This document shows positions 44,987 through 54,748 of a stretch of DNA of 64,000 nucleotides, piece by piece. This DNA comes from Citreicoccus inhibens (GTDB lineage Bacteria; Myxococcota; Myxococcia; Myxococcales; Myxococcaceae). The position numbers and the translations under genes were made by a program. Under the pieces are notes generated by a model. The model made no database searches. It was not told where the DNA came from and saw only the letters and a program-made list of their open reading frames with translations. The DNA lies in NCBI RefSeq assembly GCF_019039035.1, contig NZ_JAHNZT010000035.1, positions 1 to 64,000 of the forward strand. The letters run 5' to 3'. Position 1 is the stretch's first letter; each line of letters begins with the position of its first letter.

Positions 44987-47611
44987 ATGCGACTCGACAA
45001 ATACACGGTAAAGGCGCAAGAGGCGATCCAGGAGGGTCAGGCCCTCGCGCGGCGAGCGGACAACCCCACCTACGAGCCCGAGCATCTGGCCACCGCGCTG
45101 CTCAGCCAGAAGGACGGCATCGTCGAGCCGCTGCTGCGCAAGATTGGCGCGGACGTGAAGCTGTTCGCGGCCCGGTTGGGCGAGGCCCTCGGCAAGCTGC
45201 CGAAGCTCCAGGGCGGCGAGGGCGCCACGCTCAGCCAGCGCCTCATGAAGACCTTCGACAAGGCCGAGGACGAGGCCAAGTCGCTGAAGGACGAGTTCGT
45301 CTCCTCCGAGCACCTGCTCCTCGCGCTCACCAGCGACAAGGGCGCCACCGGCGAGGTGATGAAGTCCTCGGGCGTGACGCGGGAGCGCGTGCTGGCGGGC
45401 CTCAAGGAGGTCCGCGGCTCGGCGCGCGTCACCAGCCAGGACGCGGAGTCCACGTACCAGGCGCTGGAGAAGTACGGGCGCGACCTGACCGAGGCCGCGC
45501 GGGCCGGCAAGTTGGATCCGGTGATTGGCCGCGACGAGGAGATCCGCCGCTGCATCCAGGTCCTCAGCCGGCGCACCAAGAACAACCCCGTCCTCATCGG
45601 TGAGCCGGGCGTGGGCAAGACGGCCATCGCTGAGGGGCTCGCGCGGCGCATCGTGGATGGCGACGTCCCCGAGGGCCTGAAGAACAAGCGCCTCATCACC
45701 CTGGACCTGGGCTCCATGGTCGCGGGCGCCAAGTTCCGCGGCGAGTTCGAGGAGCGCCTCAAGGCCGTCCTGAAGGAAGTGGCGGACGCGGCCGGGGAGA
45801 TCATCCTCTTCATCGACGAGATGCACACGCTCGTGGGCGCCGGGAAGGCCGAGGGCGCCATGGACGCCGGCAACATGCTCAAGCCAGCGCTGGCGCGCGG
45901 CGAGCTGCACTGCATTGGCGCCACCACGCTGGACGAGTACCGCAAGTACATCGAGAAGGACGCCGCGCTCGAGCGCCGCTTCCAGCCCGTGTACGTGGGC
46001 GAGCCCAGCGTGCACGACACCATCAGCATCCTGCGTGGCCTCAAGGAGCGCTACGAGGTGCACCACGGCGTGCGCATCCAGGACAGCGCGCTCGTGGCCG
46101 CCGCCACGCTGAGCCACCGCTACATCGCGGACCGGTTCCTGCCGGACAAGGCCATCGACCTGGTCGACGAGGCCTCCAGCCGACTGCGCATCGAGATCGA
46201 CTCCATGCCCACGGAGATCGACGACATCCGCCGGAAGATCACCCAGCTCGAGATTGAGCGGGAGGGCCTGCGCAAGGAGACCGATCCCCACTCGAAGGAG
46301 CGGCTGGGGCAGATTGAGAAGGAGCTGGCTAACCTCAACGAGAAGTTCAACTCGCTCAAGGTGCACTGGGATGAGGAGAAGAAGGCCATTGGCGCCATCC
46401 GCTCCGCGAAGGAGAAGCTGGAGAAGGCGCGCAATGATCAGGCGGCCGCCGAGCGACAGGGCGACCTGAACCGCGCCGCGGAGCTGAAGTTCGGCGTCAC
46501 GCCTCAGCTCGAGAAGGAGCTGAACACCCAGAACGAGAAGCTGGCCGAGCTGCAGAAGAACCAGAAGTTCCTCAAGGAAGAGGTGGACGCGGAGGACATC
46601 GCCGAGGTCGTGGCGAAGTGGACGGGAATCCCCGTCTCGCGCCTCATGGAGGGCGAGGTCCAGAAGCTGGTCCACATGGAGGACCGGCTCGCGAACCGCG
46701 TGATTGGGCAGCGCAGCGCCATCGAGGCGGTGTCCAATGCCGTGCGCCGCGCGCGCAGCGGCTTGCAAGACCCCAACCGTCCCATCGGCTCGTTCATCTT
46801 CCTGGGCCCCACGGGCGTGGGGAAGACGGAGACGGCCAAGGCCCTGGCGGAGTTCCTCTTCGACGACGACAGCGCCATGGTGCGCATCGACATGTCCGAG
46901 TACATGGAGAAGCACTCCGTGGCCCGGCTCGTCGGCGCGCCCCCGGGTTACGTGGGCTACGAGGAGGGCGGACAGCTCACCGAGGCCGTGCGGCGGCGGC
47001 CCTACACCGTGGTGCTCTTCGATGAGATCGAGAAGGCCCACCACGACGTCTTCAACATCCTGCTCCAGATTCTCGACGAGGGCCGGCTGACGGACAGCCA
47101 GGGCCGCACGGTGGACTTCCGCAACACGGTGCTCATCCTCACGTCGAACCTGGGCTCGCAGGCCATCCAGGAAGGCATGTCCGGCAAGGACACGCTGACG
47201 GAGCTGGCCCGCAACGAGGTGATGGAGGCGCTGCGCAGCCACTTCCGCCCGGAGTTCCTCAACCGCGTGGACGAAATCGTCATCTTCGAGCCGCTGCGCA
47301 AGTCGGACATCTACCGCATCGTCGACATCCAGCTCGGCAAGCTCCAGAAGCTCCTGGCCGACAAGCGGCTCACGCTGGAGCTGACGGAGAAGGCGCGCGA
47401 GTTCCTCGCGGACCGGGGCTACGACCCCACCTACGGCGCCCGGCCGCTCAAGAGGGCCGTGCAGAAGTACCTGTTGGATCCGCTCGCGCTCAAGGTCCTC
47501 AACGGCGACTTCGCGCCGGGTGACCACATCCAGGCCGATGCGAGCACGGATGGAATCACCTTCGCCAAGGTGCTGGTGGACTCCGCGAAGAACGTGAAGC
47601 GCCCGGCCTGA
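44987..47611 (+). CDS. clpB: Disaggregase ClpB
   Basis: An 874-residue AAA+ chaperone that works with DnaK to dissolve aggregates. The N-terminal Clp_N double repeat fills 1-150. NBD1 has Walker [16 protein letters not shown] and Walker [13 protein letters not shown]. The coiled middle domain spans about 400-530. NBD2 has Walker [18 protein letters not shown] and [13 protein letters not shown]. The C-terminal AAA lid is complete ([16 protein letters not shown]). A strong hairpin terminator follows the stop. Confidence 0.98.
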
Positions 47612-47683: not shown

Positions 47684-48550
47684 TCAGCGGAACACGACGG
47701 TCTTGTGGCCGTTGAGCAGGATGCGGTGCTGGACGAACCACGTCACCGCGCGGGCGAGCACGACGCATTCCACGTCGCGGCCCAGCGCGGTCAGCTCGTC
47801 GGCGGTCATGGTGTGGTCCACGCGCTCCACGCCCTGCTCGATGATGGGTCCCTCGTCCAGGTCGCTCGTCACGAAGTGCGCGGTGGCGCCGATGAGCTTC
47901 ACGCCTCGGTCGTGCGCCTGCTGGTAGGGACGCGCGCCCTTGAAGCTGGGCAGGAACGAGTGGTGGATGTTGATGAGCCGGCCGCGCAGCGCCTCGCAGG
48001 TCTCGGGCGAGAGGATTTGCATGTAGCGCGCGAGCACCACCAGGTCGATGCGGTGCTCCCGCACCAACTCCATCAGCCGCGCCTCTTGCTGCGCCTTGGT
48101 GGCGGCGGTGACGGGCAGGTGGTGGAACGGGACGTTGTGGGACGCCGCCAGTTGGTAGAAGTCCATGTGGTTGGACACGATGGCGGGGATGTCCACCGGC
48201 AGGATGCCGCTGCGGTAGCGATACAGCAGGTCGTTCAGGCAGTGGCCAATCTTCGACACGAGGATGAGCACGCGCGGCTTCACCGCGGCTTCGTGCAAGT
48301 GCCACGTCATGGCGAAGCGCTCGGCGAGCGGTGCGAAGGCGCGGCTCAGCGCGGCGTGATCGCGGCGCGCATGCTCATCCGCGAAGTGCACGCGCATGAA
48401 GAACAGGCCCGTCTGGTGATCGCCGTACTGGGCGCTGTCGAGGATGTTGCAGTCGTGCTCGGCGAGGAACCCCGAGACGGCGTGGACGAGGCCACGGCGG
48501 TCCGGGCAGGAGAGCGTGAGGGTGTATTCCGGGGGCGTTTCAGTCGTCAT
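47684..48550 (-). CDS. purU: Formyltetrahydrofolate deformylase
   Basis: PurU hydrolyses 10-formyl-THF to THF and formate, balancing one-carbon pools. The 288-residue product has an N-terminal ACT domain (LTLSCPDRRGLVHAVSGFLA) and a formyltransferase-fold catalytic domain with SNHMDFYQLA, the conserved NIHHSFLPSFKGA and the Asp in SDLDEGPIIEQ. It is monocistronic, convergent with clpB and divergent from the DUF4126 gene. Confidence 0.96.
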   Translation of the reverse strand: MTTETPPEYTLTLSCPDRRGLVHAVSGFLAEHDCNILDSAQYGDHQTGLFFMRVHFADEHARRDHAALSRAFAPLAERFAMTWHLHEAAVKPRVLILVSKIGHCLNDLLYRYRSGILPVDIPAIVSNHMDFYQLAASHNVPFHHLPVTAATKAQQEARLMELVREHRIDLVVLARYMQILSPETCEALRGRLINIHHSFLPSFKGARPYQQAHDRGVKLIGATAHFVTSDLDEGPIIEQGVERVDHTMTADELTALGRDVECVVLARAVTWFVQHRILLNGHKTVVFR

Positions 48551-48664
48551 GGGGCAGTCTCGCTGACACTACCTCATGACATCCGGGCTGGCGCCCGCCT
48601 GCTCGCCATGGGGTCCCCTGTGCGGACCTCACGCCCTACCCTGCTGTCGAGGGGGAGCGAGCGC

Positions 48665-49132
48665 ATGCACACACGCGAGGCACTGAGGGCCACCGGGTTT
48701 GGAGTCATCGCGGGGATGCGATCGCTTTCCGCGCCCGCATTCCTGGAGCACCGGCTCGCACGGCATGAGCACCTCGGCTGGAGGTGGGGCCGGGCGAGCA
48801 AGACACGCCGGGTGGCGCGGCTCCTCACGACCCTGGCGGCAGGAGAGCTCGTCGTGGACAAGCTCCCCTTCGCGCCGCCGAGGATTGCGCCTCCCGCGCT
48901 CGCCGGACGACTGGCCTCGGGGGCCTTCACCGGGGCGACGCTGGCGCGGGCGAAGCGACAGCCCGTGCTTGCCTTTGCCGTCATGGGCGGACTCGCGGCG
49001 CTCGCCTCGTCGTTCGCGTTCTATGGGTTGCGCCAGCTCGCCACGCAGCGACTGCGGGTGCCGGATGTCGTCGCCGCGCTGTTCGAAGACGGGCTCACCT
49101 TGCTCGCGGGCAGTCGCCTCGCGATGGGCTGA
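48665..49132 (+). CDS. DUF4126-like membrane protein
   Basis: A 155-residue protein from the ATG at 48665, with gagggggagcg upstream. The N-terminal ATGFGVIAGMRSLSAPAFLEH is the typical start of DUF4126-type proteins. Two or three membrane segments are present, including LAFAVMGGLAALASSFAFYG. No function is known. An earlier in-frame start would overlap purU. Confidence 0.75.
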   Translation: MHTREALRATGFGVIAGMRSLSAPAFLEHRLARHEHLGWRWGRASKTRRVARLLTTLAAGELVVDKLPFAPPRIAPPALAGRLASGAFTGATLARAKRQPVLAFAVMGGLAALASSFAFYGLRQLATQRLRVPDVVAALFEDGLTLLAGSRLAMG

Positions 49133-49178: not shown

Positions 49179-50513
49179 TCAGTCAAAGGGCAGCGGGCTG
49201 TCGAACGTGAGGCGCGCGCCCGTGTGGGGATGACGAAAGGACAGCGCATCCACGTGCTGGCTGGTTCGCGCGTCTGCCGCGCCTCGCGAACCGAGCGGCC
49301 ACGCCTTGAGGCCGTGCTCATCCGCCCGTTGCACGTGTCCCCAGTCCTTCGCGGAGACGTGCGCCTCTTGAAGCGCGAACTGACGCATGAGCGCGGCGTG
49401 CGTCTGGGCGTCCTTGCTCACCACCATGAGACCCGAGGACTCGGGCTCCAAGCGTCTCGCGAAGTGTGGCGTCACGACCGGCGGCGAGCGTTGACGCAGC
49501 CGCGTCAGCACGGAGTCGCGCTCGCGCGCGTGGCGGTTCGGCGAACAGGGCAGGCCCGCGGGCTTCTCCAGCACGAGCAACCACGAATCCTCGAAGAGGA
49601 ACCGCAGCGCCGCGGGGGCACCACGCTCGACCGGGGGCGCGGGCTCGGCGTCCAGGCCTTGGAGCATGAAGGGTAGGACGTCCCCGCACTTGGCTCGGCA
49701 CGCGGGATAGAACGCCCCTTCGCGCCGGTCTCCTGACGCGGGCGCGCCCCCCCACCAGAACTCCGCGAACGCGACGGGCCTCAACCCAAGCCCATACGCC
49801 GCGCCGAGGAGCTTGGGCGCCGCGCAGTCGCCCGCGCCACCCGGGGGCGCGAGCGGCGCATACATCGCGTCCAACGTCTGTTGCTCCCCGCGCGCATTGC
49901 GAAAGACATACGTCCGAGCATTGCGCCGCCACAGCTCCCGCGAGAACTCGGCCCGAGCCCTCGCGACCGTCTCGCGCCGCACGGCCAGCGCACGCAGGGC
50001 CTCCCGTATCCGCTCCGCATCCGAAGCGCGGCCATCCGCCCGCTGTCGCGAGGCAGCCACCCCGCGGGCGGCCTCCAGCCAAGACAGGCGTTCGCGCAGG
50101 GCCGTCACCTCGGGGCCGTGGGTCAACTCCGCATACCGCGCCGACAGCAGCGCCAACGTGGCGTCCCCTGTCTCCCACAGCGCCTCGCGCGCTACCGCGT
50201 CGAAGAGCGGCGGCACGTACCCCGCGATCCACCAACGCTCCGCGAGCATCCCCGAAAAAGCACGCAGATGGCCGAGACGTCCATCTGGCGAGGCGACCAC
50301 CAACACCCCGAACATCTTCCCCTGCCCTGCCCCTGCCAGAACTCGGGCTTCCACTGCCGGCGCGATGACGCCGCGACGCAACTCGCGCTGAAGCGCCTCG
50401 GCCGCTCGCCGCGCCAGGGGATGCGGCGCGTCCTCACGGAACGGGCTGGGCAGCCGCACCGGCACCTCGCCCGGAGCGGGCTGGGGCTCGAAGTACGTCA
50501 CGAGTTCCGACAC
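49179..50513 (-). CDS. RluA-family pseudouridine synthase-like protein with altered active site
   Basis: From the GTG at 50513 (gggag upstream) the product has 444 residues. The first 290 or so are an extension with a long helical middle part and no recognised domain. The C-terminal 155 residues resemble RluA: FEDSWLLVLEKPAGLPC, then RRLEPESSGLMVVSKD. The motif that should be HRLD reads RRLE (354-356), so the catalytic Asp is replaced by Glu. The segment after it is also shorter than in active enzymes. Loss of activity or a changed role is likely. Confidence 0.75.
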   Translation of the reverse strand: MSELVTYFEPQPAPGEVPVRLPSPFREDAPHPLARRAAEALQRELRRGVIAPAVEARVLAGAGQGKMFGVLVVASPDGRLGHLRAFSGMLAERWWIAGYVPPLFDAVAREALWETGDATLALLSARYAELTHGPEVTALRERLSWLEAARGVAASRQRADGRASDAERIREALRALAVRRETVARARAEFSRELWRRNARTYVFRNARGEQQTLDAMYAPLAPPGGAGDCAAPKLLGAAYGLGLRPVAFAEFWWGGAPASGDRREGAFYPACRAKCGDVLPFMLQGLDAEPAPPVERGAPAALRFLFEDSWLLVLEKPAGLPCSPNRHARERDSVLTRLRQRSPPVVTPHFARRLEPESSGLMVVSKDAQTHAALMRQFALQEAHVSAKDWGHVQRADEHGLKAWPLGSRGAADARTSQHVDALSFRHPHTGARLTFDSPLPFD

Positions 50514-50689: not shown

Positions 50690-50734
50690 CAAAAACATCA
50701 GCCCCGACGCGCCAGGACCGGCCACGTCGGGGCT
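50690..50734 (-). terminator. Terminator of the downstream SBBP lipoprotein gene
   Basis: On the minus strand a perfect 10-bp stem AGCCCCGACG...CGTCGGGGCT (50734-50725 with 50709-50700) is followed by GATG and five T. It ends transcription of the gene at 50749-52593. Confidence 0.85.
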
Positions 50735-50748
50735 CCCCCCAGGGAATC

Positions 50749-52593
50749 TCAGTGAGGCGGAAGCTTCATGACGTAGCCGTCCGGGTTGCCCTTGATCGTG
50801 TTGCCGCCGTAGTCCCCGTACAGATAGCCCGCCATGTAGAAGTTCCCGGCCTCGTCAATCGACATGCCCATGTTGAAGACGCGCTGGTCGACACCGCCCT
50901 TGGTCGCCGGCGGCTGCTGGGAGAACCACTGGATGTTGCCCGCGGTATCGAACTTCGCGATGAACGGATGCTGCTCCGTGCCCGTGCTCGCGGAATTGGA
51001 CACGTCCCCGACGCCCGAACCCGACACGTACACGCCGCTGGCATCGATGAAGAGCGCGTTGCCAAAAGTACCGCTCGCCGAACCGAACTGCCGGGTCCAC
51101 TGCTTCACGCCCGCCGTATCGTACTTCGCGAGGAAGGTGGTCTGGCGATAGCCCGTCGGGTTGCCATCAATGGGGCCGTTCACATACCCCACGAGATAGA
51201 TATTGCCCGCAGCGTCCAGTGCCGACCCATAGATCGAGGCAACCGCTCCACCCGGCGCGCTGTTCTGACGCGTCCACTGCTTCACGCCCGCAGCGTTGTA
51301 CTTCACGACAAAGAAGTCCTGTCCGCCCACGCGCGTGTTGCCATCCAAGCCACCCGTGGTCCAGCCCGAGACGAACACGTTGCCCGCGGCATCCGCGGAG
51401 GCGCGGCGGCCGATGGTGTCCTGGCTCGTCGCACCCACCTGCCGGGTCCATTGCTTGTTGCCCGAGGCGTCATACTTCGTCACGAACGCGTCGTAGCGGC
51501 CCGTGCGAACGTTCCCATCCAGCCCCGCGTCGGTGGAGCCCACCACGAACGCGTTGTCCGAGCCATCCACGGCCACGCCATAGCCTTCGGTAGAATACCC
51601 CGACACGCCGAGCTGCCGCGTCCACTGACGCACGCCCGTGTAGCGGTACTTCGTGAGGAAGAAGTCGCGCCCCCCCGAGGAGGCGGTCCCGTCCAGCGAG
51701 CCGTCCGTGAGGCCCGCGACGTAGATCTGCTCGTAGGTGCTGTTGCGCGCGATGCCGTAGCCCACCGTGGCGCCATTCGTGACACCAAACTGCGCGGCGA
51801 AAATCTTGGCGCCGCTGGAGTTGTACGCATTCAGGAAGCCGTCCATGGCGCTTACGGCGGGGTTCCCCTCCAGCCCCACGTTCGTCATGCCCGTCACATA
51901 GGTGCGCCCGGCCAGGTCTCCCACCAGGTCGTGCTGACGCGTGAAGCCATCCGGCGCCCCCTGCGTCTTCACCCACAACGCGTTGACGGTCGTGGGGGCA
52001 CAGCCAATCAGCTCCAGCGTTCCCATGGAGATGACGACGATGCCCGCCCGGGTGTCGTTGTCATCCGAGATGTTGATGCGGAACTTGCGATACGTCGCGG
52101 GCGTGGAGAGCGTGAACACGCGCCGCTCGCCGCCGCCCCAGCTCACCTGGTTCGTCCGCGTATCGAGCACCACCCAGGCGCTGCCGTTCCAGCCCTCGAA
52201 GGTCCAGTTCTTCGGCGCGCGGGTGGTGATGCTCCCGTTGCTGTATTGAATGGCATACGACTGGACCGTGCGCGGTCCATCCACCCACTCATACGCCAGC
52301 CACGCTGGCGTCTGGTTCTCCTGGGAGATCCACATCGAAGGAATGCTCGAGTCGAACGCCTGCCACGCCGGATAGCCCGTGCTGAAGTCTCCCGAGGCCG
52401 TCACGATGCCCGAGGGCGAGGTCGCGCTCGTCATCGCAGGGACCATCGTGACACCACACAGAGATTGAGCGCTGGAGCCCGTCTCATCCGTGGCCCCTTC
52501 CACGGGTGAGTCCGCGCCCTGGCAACCCGGCAGGGCCAACACGCCCATGGCTCCCGCCAGAAACAAGTTCTTGAATGACTTCATGACTGACAT
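50749..52593 (-). CDS. Discoidin-like/SBBP-repeat lipoprotein, copy A
   Basis: A 614-residue protein from the ATG at 52593, with agggggaa upstream. The lipoprotein signal ends LPGC (C24). About 45-165 is a discoidin-like carbohydrate-binding domain (F5/8 type C): WQAFDSSIPSMWIS, YAIQYSNGSI, NWTFEGWNGSAWVVLDTR, YRKFRINISDDND. The remainder is seven or so SBBP beta-propeller repeats with the pattern G.V.QWTRQ.G....G.A.D..GN..V.G.T.G.LDGN. It is a cell-surface or periplasmic binding protein in likelihood. It is a tandem paralogue of the next gene, with exactly the same length. Confidence 0.85.
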   Translation of the reverse strand: MSVMKSFKNLFLAGAMGVLALPGCQGADSPVEGATDETGSSAQSLCGVTMVPAMTSATSPSGIVTASGDFSTGYPAWQAFDSSIPSMWISQENQTPAWLAYEWVDGPRTVQSYAIQYSNGSITTRAPKNWTFEGWNGSAWVVLDTRTNQVSWGGGERRVFTLSTPATYRKFRINISDDNDTRAGIVVISMGTLELIGCAPTTVNALWVKTQGAPDGFTRQHDLVGDLAGRTYVTGMTNVGLEGNPAVSAMDGFLNAYNSSGAKIFAAQFGVTNGATVGYGIARNSTYEQIYVAGLTDGSLDGTASSGGRDFFLTKYRYTGVRQWTRQLGVSGYSTEGYGVAVDGSDNAFVVGSTDAGLDGNVRTGRYDAFVTKYDASGNKQWTRQVGATSQDTIGRRASADAAGNVFVSGWTTGGLDGNTRVGGQDFFVVKYNAAGVKQWTRQNSAPGGAVASIYGSALDAAGNIYLVGYVNGPIDGNPTGYRQTTFLAKYDTAGVKQWTRQFGSASGTFGNALFIDASGVYVSGSGVGDVSNSASTGTEQHPFIAKFDTAGNIQWFSQQPPATKGGVDQRVFNMGMSIDEAGNFYMAGYLYGDYGGNTIKGNPDGYVMKLPPH

Positions 52594-52731
52594 GTGTTCC
52601 CCCTGGGTAAGGCATGTGCAACGTGCACACGGCGGGGAATACACAGAACTCCCTCGAGAGGGCGGGACGATGTGACGAACCCGCCCTCCCGAGTGACGAA
52701 CCGCGCGAATCCTGATGCGAAACTCCACCCG

Positions 52732-52748
52732 GGGCACGCTGCGTGCCC
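52732..52748 (-). terminator. Weak hairpin between the two SBBP lipoprotein genes
   Basis: GGGCACGC (52732-52739) and GCGTGCCC (52741-52748) form a compact hairpin about 20 bp after the stop of the upstream copy. Only three T follow on the minus strand, so termination may be partial. The rest of the 175-bp gap carries no clear promoter. Confidence 0.35.
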
Positions 52749-52768
52749 GCACCCGTGGGGTTTCCGCG

Positions 52769-54613
52769 CTACTGCGGGGACAACTTCACGAGGACCGTGT
52801 CCGTGGACCCCTTCAGCGTGTTACCGCCGTAGTTCCCCATCGTGCTGCCCGCCAGGTAGTAATTCCCGTTCGGGTCGATGGCCGCGCCATAGCACCGCAC
52901 GCCCACCGCGGAGCCATTCCGGAAGGCGGTGTCCTGCTGAGACACCCACTGCAAGACACCCGCCGCATCAAAGCGGGCAAGGAAGGAATGCTGCTCCGTT
53001 CCCGTGCTCGACGGGACGGTCACGTCCCCCTTCGCGTCGCCCGCCAGGAAGACGCCCGAGGAATTGGCAACCACCGCGTTGCCATACGCGCCGCCATTGG
53101 AGCCCAGCTGCCGGACCCACTGCAGGACACCCGCGCTGGTGTACTGCGCCAGGAACGCCGTGGTCCGGCCTCCCACCGAGTTCCCCGGCAGGTCGCCGTT
53201 GGAGTAGCCCGACAGATAGAGATTGCCGGCCGGGTCCATCGTGGAGGCCAACAGCGTGACGCCGCTCCCCGCGGACACGTAGAACTGACGCGTCCACTGC
53301 TTCACGCCCGCCGCGTCGTACTTGATGACAAAGACACTCCAGCCAGTCGCCGTCGAGTTGCCATCCAAGGCGCCGTTCGTGGTGCCCGACACGTAGACAT
53401 TGCCCGCGCTGTCCGTGACGACGCCCTTGCCCGTGGTGCTCGCCCCCGCGAGGCCCGTCTGCCGCGTCCACAGCTTGTTGCCCGCGGCATCGAACTTCGT
53501 GACGAAGACATCCGACATTCCCGCCCGCACGTTTCCGTCCAGGCCCGCGTCGACATCCCCCATGATGAAGGAGTTATCCGAGGCGTCCGTGGCCACGGTG
53601 TACCCGTAGGTCGAGCCACCCGCGACCCCCACCAACCGGGTCCACTGATACACGCCCGCGGCGGAGTACTTCGTGACGAATGCATTGCGCGGACCGGGCA
53701 TCGGAACCCCACCCAGCGCGCCGTCCGCCCAGCCGCTCACGTAGACAGTATTGGACACGCGATTGAAGGCCACCCCCATGCCCGCGGTCATGACGCCGGG
53801 CACGCCGAGGACCCGAGACCATTGCGTCACCCCGCTCGCGTCCGACACGCTCAGGAAGGTATCGAGCGTGCCGACCGCCGCGTTGCCTTCAATCCCCACC
53901 GTCGACATGCCCACGGCGTACGTGCGCCCGTTGCCATCTGCCGCGAGGGCGCGCGTCTCCGAGTAGCCGTTGTTCGAGCCCTGCGTCTTCGTCCACAGGG
54001 GCGAGGTCGTGGTGGGCGCGCAGCTGAGCAACTCCAACCGCCCGATGGAGATGACCACCACGCCCGCGCGGGTGTCATTGTCATCCGAGATGTTCAGCCG
54101 ATACTTCCGATAGGAGCCGGGCGAGGTCACCTGGAACTCGCGCCGCTCGGCGCCGCCCCAATTGATTTGATTGCTGCGCGTGTCGAGCACCAACCACGCG
54201 CTCCCGTTCCATCCCTCGAACGTCCAGTCCTTCGGCGCTCGGGTGGTGATGGAGCCATTGCTGTACTGAATGGCATACCGATGGACGACCTGTGGCCCGT
54301 CCGTCCACTCATAGGCAAGCCACGCCGGAGTCTGGTTCTCCTGAGAGAGCCACATCGTGGGGAAGCTCGAGTCGAAGGCCTGCCAGGCTTCGTAGCTCGA
54401 GCTGAACACGCCCGAGCGACTGACGATTCCCGTGGGCGTGGTGTTTCCCGTCATGACGGGAGCCACGGAGGACCCGCACAGCGCCTGCGCGCTCGTGTTC
54501 AGCAACTCCTCACCGCCTGGCTCGGACGACGCCTCGCCCTGACACCCCGGCAATGACAATGCAACCACCGCGCCCGCCAGAAACAGCCGCTTCAACGTCT
54601 GAATGACTTCCAC
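52769..54613 (-). CDS. Discoidin-like/SBBP-repeat lipoprotein, copy B
   Basis: A 614-residue protein from the GTG at 54613 (aagggggc upstream); an in-frame ATG at 54667 would add 18 residues. Architecture equals that of copy A: lipoprotein signal ending LPGC (C24), a discoidin-like domain (WQAFDSSFPTMWLS, DWTFEGWNGSAWLVLDTR), then SBBP repeats (GVYQWTRLVGVAGGSTYGY, AGNKLWTRQTGLAG). The pair clearly arose by tandem duplication. The discoidin part is more conserved between copies than the propeller, which suggests a shared ligand with different partners. Confidence 0.85.
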   Translation of the reverse strand: MEVIQTLKRLFLAGAVVALSLPGCQGEASSEPGGEELLNTSAQALCGSSVAPVMTGNTTPTGIVSRSGVFSSSYEAWQAFDSSFPTMWLSQENQTPAWLAYEWTDGPQVVHRYAIQYSNGSITTRAPKDWTFEGWNGSAWLVLDTRSNQINWGGAERREFQVTSPGSYRKYRLNISDDNDTRAGVVVISIGRLELLSCAPTTTSPLWTKTQGSNNGYSETRALAADGNGRTYAVGMSTVGIEGNAAVGTLDTFLSVSDASGVTQWSRVLGVPGVMTAGMGVAFNRVSNTVYVSGWADGALGGVPMPGPRNAFVTKYSAAGVYQWTRLVGVAGGSTYGYTVATDASDNSFIMGDVDAGLDGNVRAGMSDVFVTKFDAAGNKLWTRQTGLAGASTTGKGVVTDSAGNVYVSGTTNGALDGNSTATGWSVFVIKYDAAGVKQWTRQFYVSAGSGVTLLASTMDPAGNLYLSGYSNGDLPGNSVGGRTTAFLAQYTSAGVLQWVRQLGSNGGAYGNAVVANSSGVFLAGDAKGDVTVPSSTGTEQHSFLARFDAAGVLQWVSQQDTAFRNGSAVGVRCYGAAIDPNGNYYLAGSTMGNYGGNTLKGSTDTVLVKLSPQ

Positions 54614-54748
54614 GATGCCCCCTTGAAATGCCTGTGCGGAATGCACGTGGGCTCTCTTAGGGGCCACACCTCCGGTGCATAAGCCGGAAGTGTCGAAGTC
54701 TCCGCCGCGCGGGGCGAAGCGCGCTGGCGTTGGGACGAGACTCCCCTT

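Follow-up and report, generated by a model that had tools for sequence, protein, structure and literature searches.

A minus-strand gene in the window, by which we mean the whole 64,000-nucleotide stretch of Citreicoccus inhibens DNA analysed here, appears by descent to encode a paralogue of the two-step tRNA editor TrcP in which the cytidine deaminase has been preserved and the pseudouridine synthase (PUS) domain that follows it has been extensively degraded (Table 1). We consider it probable, though far from assured, that this protein edits RNA from cytidine to uridine (C-to-U) only, the second step of the ancestral reaction having been lost. The PUS features characteristic of TrcP were looked for in the protein and found to be missing, and for this reason we do not class it as a TrcP-type editor of cytidine to pseudouridine. 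Close relatives with damaged PUS motifs were found in about half of the genomes of the family.

TrcP (VCA0104) of Vibrio cholerae converts C32 of tRNA-Tyr to pseudouridine by way of U (Kimura et al. 2022, PMC9553926). As described there, an N-terminal zinc cytidine deaminase makes U and an RluA-type domain then makes pseudouridine; C282, C324, C328 and E303 are each needed for deamination, and the N-terminal domain alone, or the PUS-dead R507A mutant, takes C32 to U and no further (PMC9553926). The same account has a long helical arm holding the tRNA and a charged patch needed for editing, and it cites as support for coupling of the two steps the presence of both domains in all homologues of its published alignment (PMC9553926). 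In the literature that we searched, no report of a PUS-dead TrcP clade was found.

Table 1. Features of the TrcP paralogue, in window coordinates.
Feature	Coordinates	Strand	Description and basis
Whole gene, TrcP paralogue	49179..50513	-	444 aa; GTG start at 50513, stop at 49179
Deaminase (CDA) domain, part one	50199..50513	-	Residues 1-105, GKMFGVLVV motif; alignment with TrcP relatives, AlphaFold model
Long helical (LHL) arm, shortened	49911..50198	-	About residues 106-201; model and alignment
Deaminase (CDA) domain, part two	49647..49910	-	Residues 202-289; alignment and model
Cys230, predicted zinc ligand (TrcP C282)	49824..49826	-	Cys in 113/113 aligned rows
Glu251, predicted catalytic glutamate (TrcP E303)	49761..49763	-	Glu in 113/113 aligned rows
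Cys272, predicted zinc ligand (TrcP C324)	49698..49700	-	Cys in 113/113 aligned rows
Cys276, predicted zinc ligand (TrcP C328)	49686..49688	-	Cys in 113/113 aligned rows
Degenerate RluA-type PUS domain	49182..49643	-	Residues 291-444; partial PF00849 match and motif losses
Glu356, codon GAG	49446..49448	-	Column of the PUS catalytic Asp (residue 407, V. tubiashii TrcP)
Junction of in-frame 198-bp deletion relative to congener	49275..49283	-	TGRTHQLR block removed; DNA alignment

The original prediction described an RluA-like protein with RLE in place of RLD, a domain cut short beyond that motif, and some 290 unassigned residues ahead of it. The first two features are borne out in what is a real gene: Glu356 lies in RRLEPESSG, where RluA-type synthases have HRLDxxTSG, and the Pfam family PF00849 matches only profile positions 2-75 of 152 (residues 312-387; 39.5 bits against a cut-off of 26.8), 198 bp being missing by comparison with a congener. 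This is the weakest of twelve PF00849 matches in the genome; no second Pfam domain was found in the protein beyond it, and the TIGR00005 score of 56.3 falls far short of the cut-off of 192.7. Residues 1-290 likewise have no Pfam or NCBIfam match, and to that extent the third description stands, but they do match the TrcP deaminase. A longer alternative reading frame opens at 50690; alignments with homologues begin at the position of the GTG codon and favour it as the start. The architecture is not a chance one, since relatives built in the same way occur in several phyla and the copy of the congener (G001) is 83% identical to the window protein over residues 1-414. Elsewhere in the same genome, on contig C39, lies a full-length TrcP with intact motifs (L053:9050-10720).

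Assignment of the N-terminal module draws on a profile from 33 relatives, which matched at least 563 stretches of the genome collection. From these we retained 80 named loci, belonging to Bacteroidota, Vibrio, Gemmatimonadota, Mariprofundus, Myxococcota and others. Most of them (69 of 80) encode 500-599 residues, and in these loci the near-invariant motifs GKMFGVLVV, GAGDCAAPKLL, AEFWWG and YPACRGKC precede the RluA domain. In the TrcPs of V. tubiashii and V. pectenicida, residues 282, 303, 324 and 328 align with C230, E251, C272 and C276 of the window protein, and the four are invariant in every aligned protein, the window's included. Judged by these alignments, the N-terminus is a predicted TrcP cytidine deaminase with an inserted helical arm. 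The arm is shortened: it measures 97 residues between alignment bounds, whereas of ten group-B rows nine have 144-146 and one has 160.

Predicted structures agree with a TrcP-like layout. The AlphaFold model of the whole window protein has a mean pLDDT of 88.6, with poor confidence at residues 394-415, around the deletion; the modelled module of a short-armed relative (G028) reaches a mean of 95.4, and in it the first Cys opens a helix, the Glu lies in the next strand and the Cys pair opens the following helices. Foldseek searches of the whole model against the PDB returned only PUS enzymes at E <= 0.001. The N-terminal module alone gave no match at that threshold. Matches to the helical arm took up its Foldseek list, the VIA-align rows listed for it also fell on the arm, and neither set of listed rows included a deaminase. 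When the module profile was compared with solved chains none scored below E 0.1, those listed being mostly coiled coils, and a Pfam search of 110 module sequences gave no family common to more than six and none that fits the module. According to Kimura et al., the helical arm likewise dominated structure searches with the full TrcP N-terminus; their DALI match was obtained with the deaminase domain after the arm had been left out, and that domain structurally resembles blasticidin-S deaminase (Kimura et al. 2022, PMC9553926). For the window protein, then, the deaminase fold is proposed on homology, not on structure searches.

The PUS half of the protein is very probably inactive, because Glu replaces the catalytic Asp, the KRY motif is gone and the TGRTHQLR block has been deleted. 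The Arg of HQLR in that block corresponds to residue 507 of V. tubiashii and V. pectenicida TrcP and falls in a gap in the window protein. Aligned with the congener's copy, the gene lacks a single in-frame stretch of 198 bp (by hand count), which would fall between residues 412 and 413, with a short G+C-rich repeat visible by eye at the deletion ends. Among the 50 clade members examined, loss of the R507 block is confined to the window's copy, which may thus be on its way out with its deaminase half untouched. The Glu substitution has a different distribution. The congener keeps Asp (RRLD), and the catalytic column of the 50 clade members holds Glu in 30, Asp in 20 and nothing else, with at least nine Asp/Glu switches on the clade tree. 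Conservation of RLE in orthologues, raised in the original prediction, is therefore mixed. The sequencing error envisaged there is unlikely given Glu in 30 of 50 members. Glu356 is not a mutation peculiar to this strain, nor is Glu fixed across the clade, whose signature is instead the loss of the PUS active site. For the retention of an acidic side chain in this column, a structural role is the one explanation we offer.

Window-type copies, designated group A, occur in at least 50 of 96 genomes of the family, and a second TrcP match is listed in all 50 of these genomes (by our reading of the match table). In a tree of N-terminal columns, the 16 group-A rows of 53 form one clade (96/89). Rows with a broken HRLD motif occupy one side of a branch in two larger trees (51 of 107 rows, SH-aLRT 93; 51 of 111 rows, SH-aLRT 96), and in trees built without the PUS domain no intact-HRLD row falls within the clade. 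As the groups were split by HRLD itself, its presence in 0 of 50 vs 56 of 56 rows is true by definition and is not evidence; the evidence for the clade is that a tree without motif columns unites the broken-HRLD rows and that other PUS columns are lost. Named members are Myxococcus sp. RHSTA-1-4, M. llanfairpwllgwyngyllgogerychwyrndrobwllllantysiliogogogochensis, M. eversor, M. qinghaiensis, Corallococcus sicarius and C. llansteffanensis; HRLD is kept at the remaining 74 of the 80 named loci. Alignment A1 holds 33 of 36 aligned rows, contig-end fragments from G013, G014 and G004 being left out, and A3 holds 110 of 112 prepared rows, L081 and L094 being taken as equal to G032 and G002; a partial G003 row was left out before A3. 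That G003 copy carried a group-A label from BLAST, which was rejected because the trees place it outside the group and it keeps HRLD. Six duplicate rows were removed, L233 (on the same contig as L063) stands outside the 50-member counts, and short contig-end matches (G013:C646 and G056) were left aside. The 56 comparison TrcPs are a selection of other copies. Two further loci are full TrcPs with interruptions, by 223 N in G037 and by one in-frame stop in the first G026 copy.

The C, E, C, C residues of the deaminase are present in 50 of 50 group-A proteins. In the PUS domain, 48 of 50 lack the HRLD Arg (it persists in the window protein and its congener) and 41 of 50 the Tyr of the PUS motif; the R507 column remains Arg in 47 and is free of gaps in 49. 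The Tyr, R507 and TGRTHQ are intact in all 56 comparison TrcPs. Columns at least 96% conserved outside the clade are kept in group A at 42 of 45 deaminase positions vs 38 of 70 PUS positions (Fisher p 3.8e-6), and omission of the four group-defining motif columns leaves 37 of 66 PUS positions kept (Fisher p 1.2e-5). Losses include HRLDxxT, KxY, DxxxRPRQ and GRTHQ; at the same conservation thresholds, ten residues are fixed specifically in the clade, and the PUS domain accounts for only two of them (V to L and V to A). The helical arm has also been reduced, from a median of 146 residues with a net charge of +8 in comparison rows to 72 residues and -1 in group A. The six positions of the TrcP tRNA-binding patch are gaps in 37 of 50 clade members, the window protein among them, but this is a weak criterion, since in other TrcPs several of these positions are variable as well. 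Nor is a short arm in itself a sign of an inactive PUS domain: eight Gemmatimonadota/Kofleriaceae proteins (L073-L077, L080, L083, L088) combine arms of 38-67 residues with intact PUS motifs, and some targets may therefore not require the arm.

Rates of substitution separate the two halves of the window protein as well. Between the window gene and its congener, omega is 0.067 for the deaminase (bootstrap 0.027-0.111); the PUS part, taken up to the deletion, has 0.268 (bootstrap 0.156-0.542). The second TrcP that these two genomes carry gives values of 0.081 and 0.022. In the window genus, the PUS domain is relaxed and the deaminase is under strong purifying selection. Relaxation was observed in this genus only, as the five group-A pairs outside it have a C-terminal omega of 0.05-0.21, below the N-terminal value in four of the five. 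Constraint on the PUS part elsewhere in the clade is the main result at odds with simple decay, and even with its synthase residues lost, the domain apparently still has work to do, either structural or in gripping RNA.

Survival of the deaminase without a working synthase extends beyond the clade. At least four genomes carry a TrcP deaminase that ends just after its last motif: G041 (330 aa, L301), G024 (339 aa, L302), G026 in its second copy (382 aa, L303) and G019 (221 aa, L304, the start cut off by a contig end). All four retain C, E, C and C, and a full TrcP query found no PUS sequence in the 2.2-3.0 kb downstream of the genes. In G041, G024 and G019, the deaminase-only copy is the sole TrcP match among those listed; in the phylum, at least 93 of 195 genomes have a TrcP match. 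The four rows fall outside group A in the tree, G041 with G019 and the other two elsewhere, their exact places being unsure as two of the four sit on long branches. The deaminase would thus have outlived the synthase more than once, through decay in group A and through truncation elsewhere, and the presence of PUS-less TrcP deaminases in four other genomes strengthens the C-to-U-only reading of the window gene.

Clues to the target were sought among tRNAs and neighbouring genes. The tRNA-Tyr of the window genome carries C32. All 30 genomes that were checked have this base, the 17 with a listed TrcP-like match as well as the 13 without one, and C32 was dropped as a marker because it does not discriminate between them. 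All 48 tRNAs found in the window genome have T33, so none of them needs C-to-U rescue at position 33; at position 8, 45 of the tRNA genes have T and 3 have G. The genome also holds a second tRNA-Tyr gene (L283, G000 contig C30:130922-131006), which scores low, has C32 and G37 and is possibly carried by a mobile element. DNA like it occurs in 44 of 96 family genomes; by hand count these are 33 of the 50 that have a clade copy and 11 of the other 46. Its distribution tracks genus membership (within genus g23, 17 of 17 and 9 of 10), and it was not taken as evidence. Across 16 group-A loci (the window's, six from named records and nine more), no gene family adjoins the gene in several genera. A family designated cluster 1 does turn up at four loci of two genera, several kilobases away, and the simple gene caller passed over the TrcP frame itself at the G008 and G009 loci. 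With no conserved adjoining family, gene neighbourhood was dropped as a clue.

The surroundings of the window gene have features of their own. At 50749-52752 and 52769-54667, both on the minus strand, lie adjacent and similar SBBP beta-propeller proteins, an apparent tandem duplication of which the congener has one. Downstream are a formyl transferase with an ACT domain (PurU-like; 47684-48550, minus strand) and a ClpB-type chaperone (44987-47611, plus strand), an order common only to the congener among the loci compared. The frame at 47705-49132 and other long plus-strand open reading frames face likely genes and are probably of the kind produced by high G+C codon use.

If the C-to-U-only reading is right, the protein would bind an RNA and deaminate cytidine to uridine by means of a zinc-activated water, and the reaction would stop at U, as no working synthase would follow. 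In most of the clade, the PUS fold would still be under selection, probably as a scaffold or RNA clamp, and in the window strain it would have begun falling apart. The full-length TrcP on contig C39 would be responsible for the C-to-pseudouridine editing of the genome, and loss of the charged arm suggests that the paralogue has a target or binding mode unlike that of TrcP on tRNA-Tyr. A wider extension, which we regard as conceivable but doubtful, is that, in the Myxococcus-Corallococcus family, roughly every second genome among those examined possesses a dedicated, TrcP-born C-to-U editor of RNAs other than tRNA-Tyr, for which other tRNAs, mRNAs and non-coding RNAs are candidates.

Several results sit uneasily with the C-to-U-only reading and must be weighed with its rivals. 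As the patch needed for TrcP editing (Kimura et al. 2022, PMC9553926) is replaced by gaps in 37 of 50 members, the clade might not edit at all. The deletion, found in the window copy alone, raises the possibility of a dying gene, and we regard as unlikely the view that this copy is decaying and without remaining function, with the strain-specific deletion marking the start of its loss. Absence of the R507 block from one clade member in 50, the relaxed PUS part (omega 0.268), low model confidence over residues 394-415 and a full TrcP elsewhere in the genome would all fit such decay; the reading frame is nevertheless still open and the deletion in frame, and the deaminase is constrained, though this constraint may predate the deletion and is no test of the present copy. 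A catalytic carboxylate (D or E) in 50 of 50 members and Arg at R507 in 47 of 50 are odd for a useless active site. Together with the nine or more D/E switches and the low C-terminal omega in the five clade pairs outside the window genus, they could mean that the PUS site has been reused, its carboxylate and R507 Arg serving a changed reaction or the gripping of the edited RNA. We give this proposal little credence, as the HRLD Arg is lost in 48 of 50 members and the Tyr in 41, few of the clade-specific fixed residues lie in the PUS domain, the R507 block is gone from the window protein and four other TrcP deaminases manage without the domain.

The remaining alternatives set aside either the catalysis or the RNA. 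RNA-binding pseudoenzymes are plausible in general, and an enzymatically inactive RNA-binding derivative, as originally proposed, would accord with the disappearance of the PUS motifs. That proposal fares well for the synthase, very probably dead, and poorly for the deaminase, whose four residues are kept in 50 of 50 members and whose omega is low; the reduced part of the protein is, moreover, the charged arm, the known tRNA binder in TrcP (Kimura et al. 2022, PMC9553926). We judge it very unlikely, and an active C-to-U deaminase is the better prediction because the catalytic residues are intact and omega for this part is 0.067. Action of the deaminase on a non-RNA substrate, such as a small cytosine compound, is suggested by the likeness of the TrcP domain to blasticidin-S deaminase (Kimura et al. 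2022, PMC9553926) and by loss of the tRNA-tethering patch in most clade members. It seems to us highly improbable, given that the RluA-type domain persists, ungapped at the R507 column in 49 of 50 proteins, and that no partner gene adjoins the locus across genera.

On the C-to-U-only reading, group A and the deaminase-only relatives would together represent a natural separation of the two steps of TrcP and would indicate that C-to-U editing alone can be worth keeping. The clade also supplies 50 genomes whose RNA can be compared with their DNA for C-to-T mismatches; six of the 50 were matched to named Myxococcus or Corallococcus records. Were the dedicated-editor extension true, these bacteria would have a layer of C-to-U editing absent from the papers that we found. 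A practical point concerns annotation: at E <= 0.001 all 33 proteins of A1 have a TIGR00005 match, and automatic pipelines likely label the clade as pseudouridine synthases, probably wrongly for the window protein.

Among the closest known systems, V. cholerae TrcP shares the design of the window protein, with a deaminase split by a helical arm and followed by an RluA-type PUS domain, and with C282, E303, C324 and C328 matched in the window protein; the latter differs in its replaced PUS Asp, deleted R507 block, shortened arm and absent patch positions. The paralogue on contig C39 has the same architecture, with 45% identity over the best matched stretch, but retains HRLDLDTSG, KRYIAW and TGRTHQLRVH and an arm of 144 residues with a net charge of +12. 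RluA and TIGR00005 synthases share with the window protein a PF00849 match above cut-off, whereas half of that profile is unmatched in the window protein and the TIGR00005 cut-off is missed by far. The deaminase-only relatives (L301-L304) have the same deaminase residues and no working PUS, yet lack any PUS domain and lie outside the window clade. In its predicted state, a deaminase intact and a PUS domain dead, the window protein resembles the laboratory R507A mutant of TrcP, which makes C-to-U only (Kimura et al. 2022, PMC9553926), with the difference that here the state is a natural and clade-wide one, accompanied by a reduced arm in most members and by wide loss of PUS residues.
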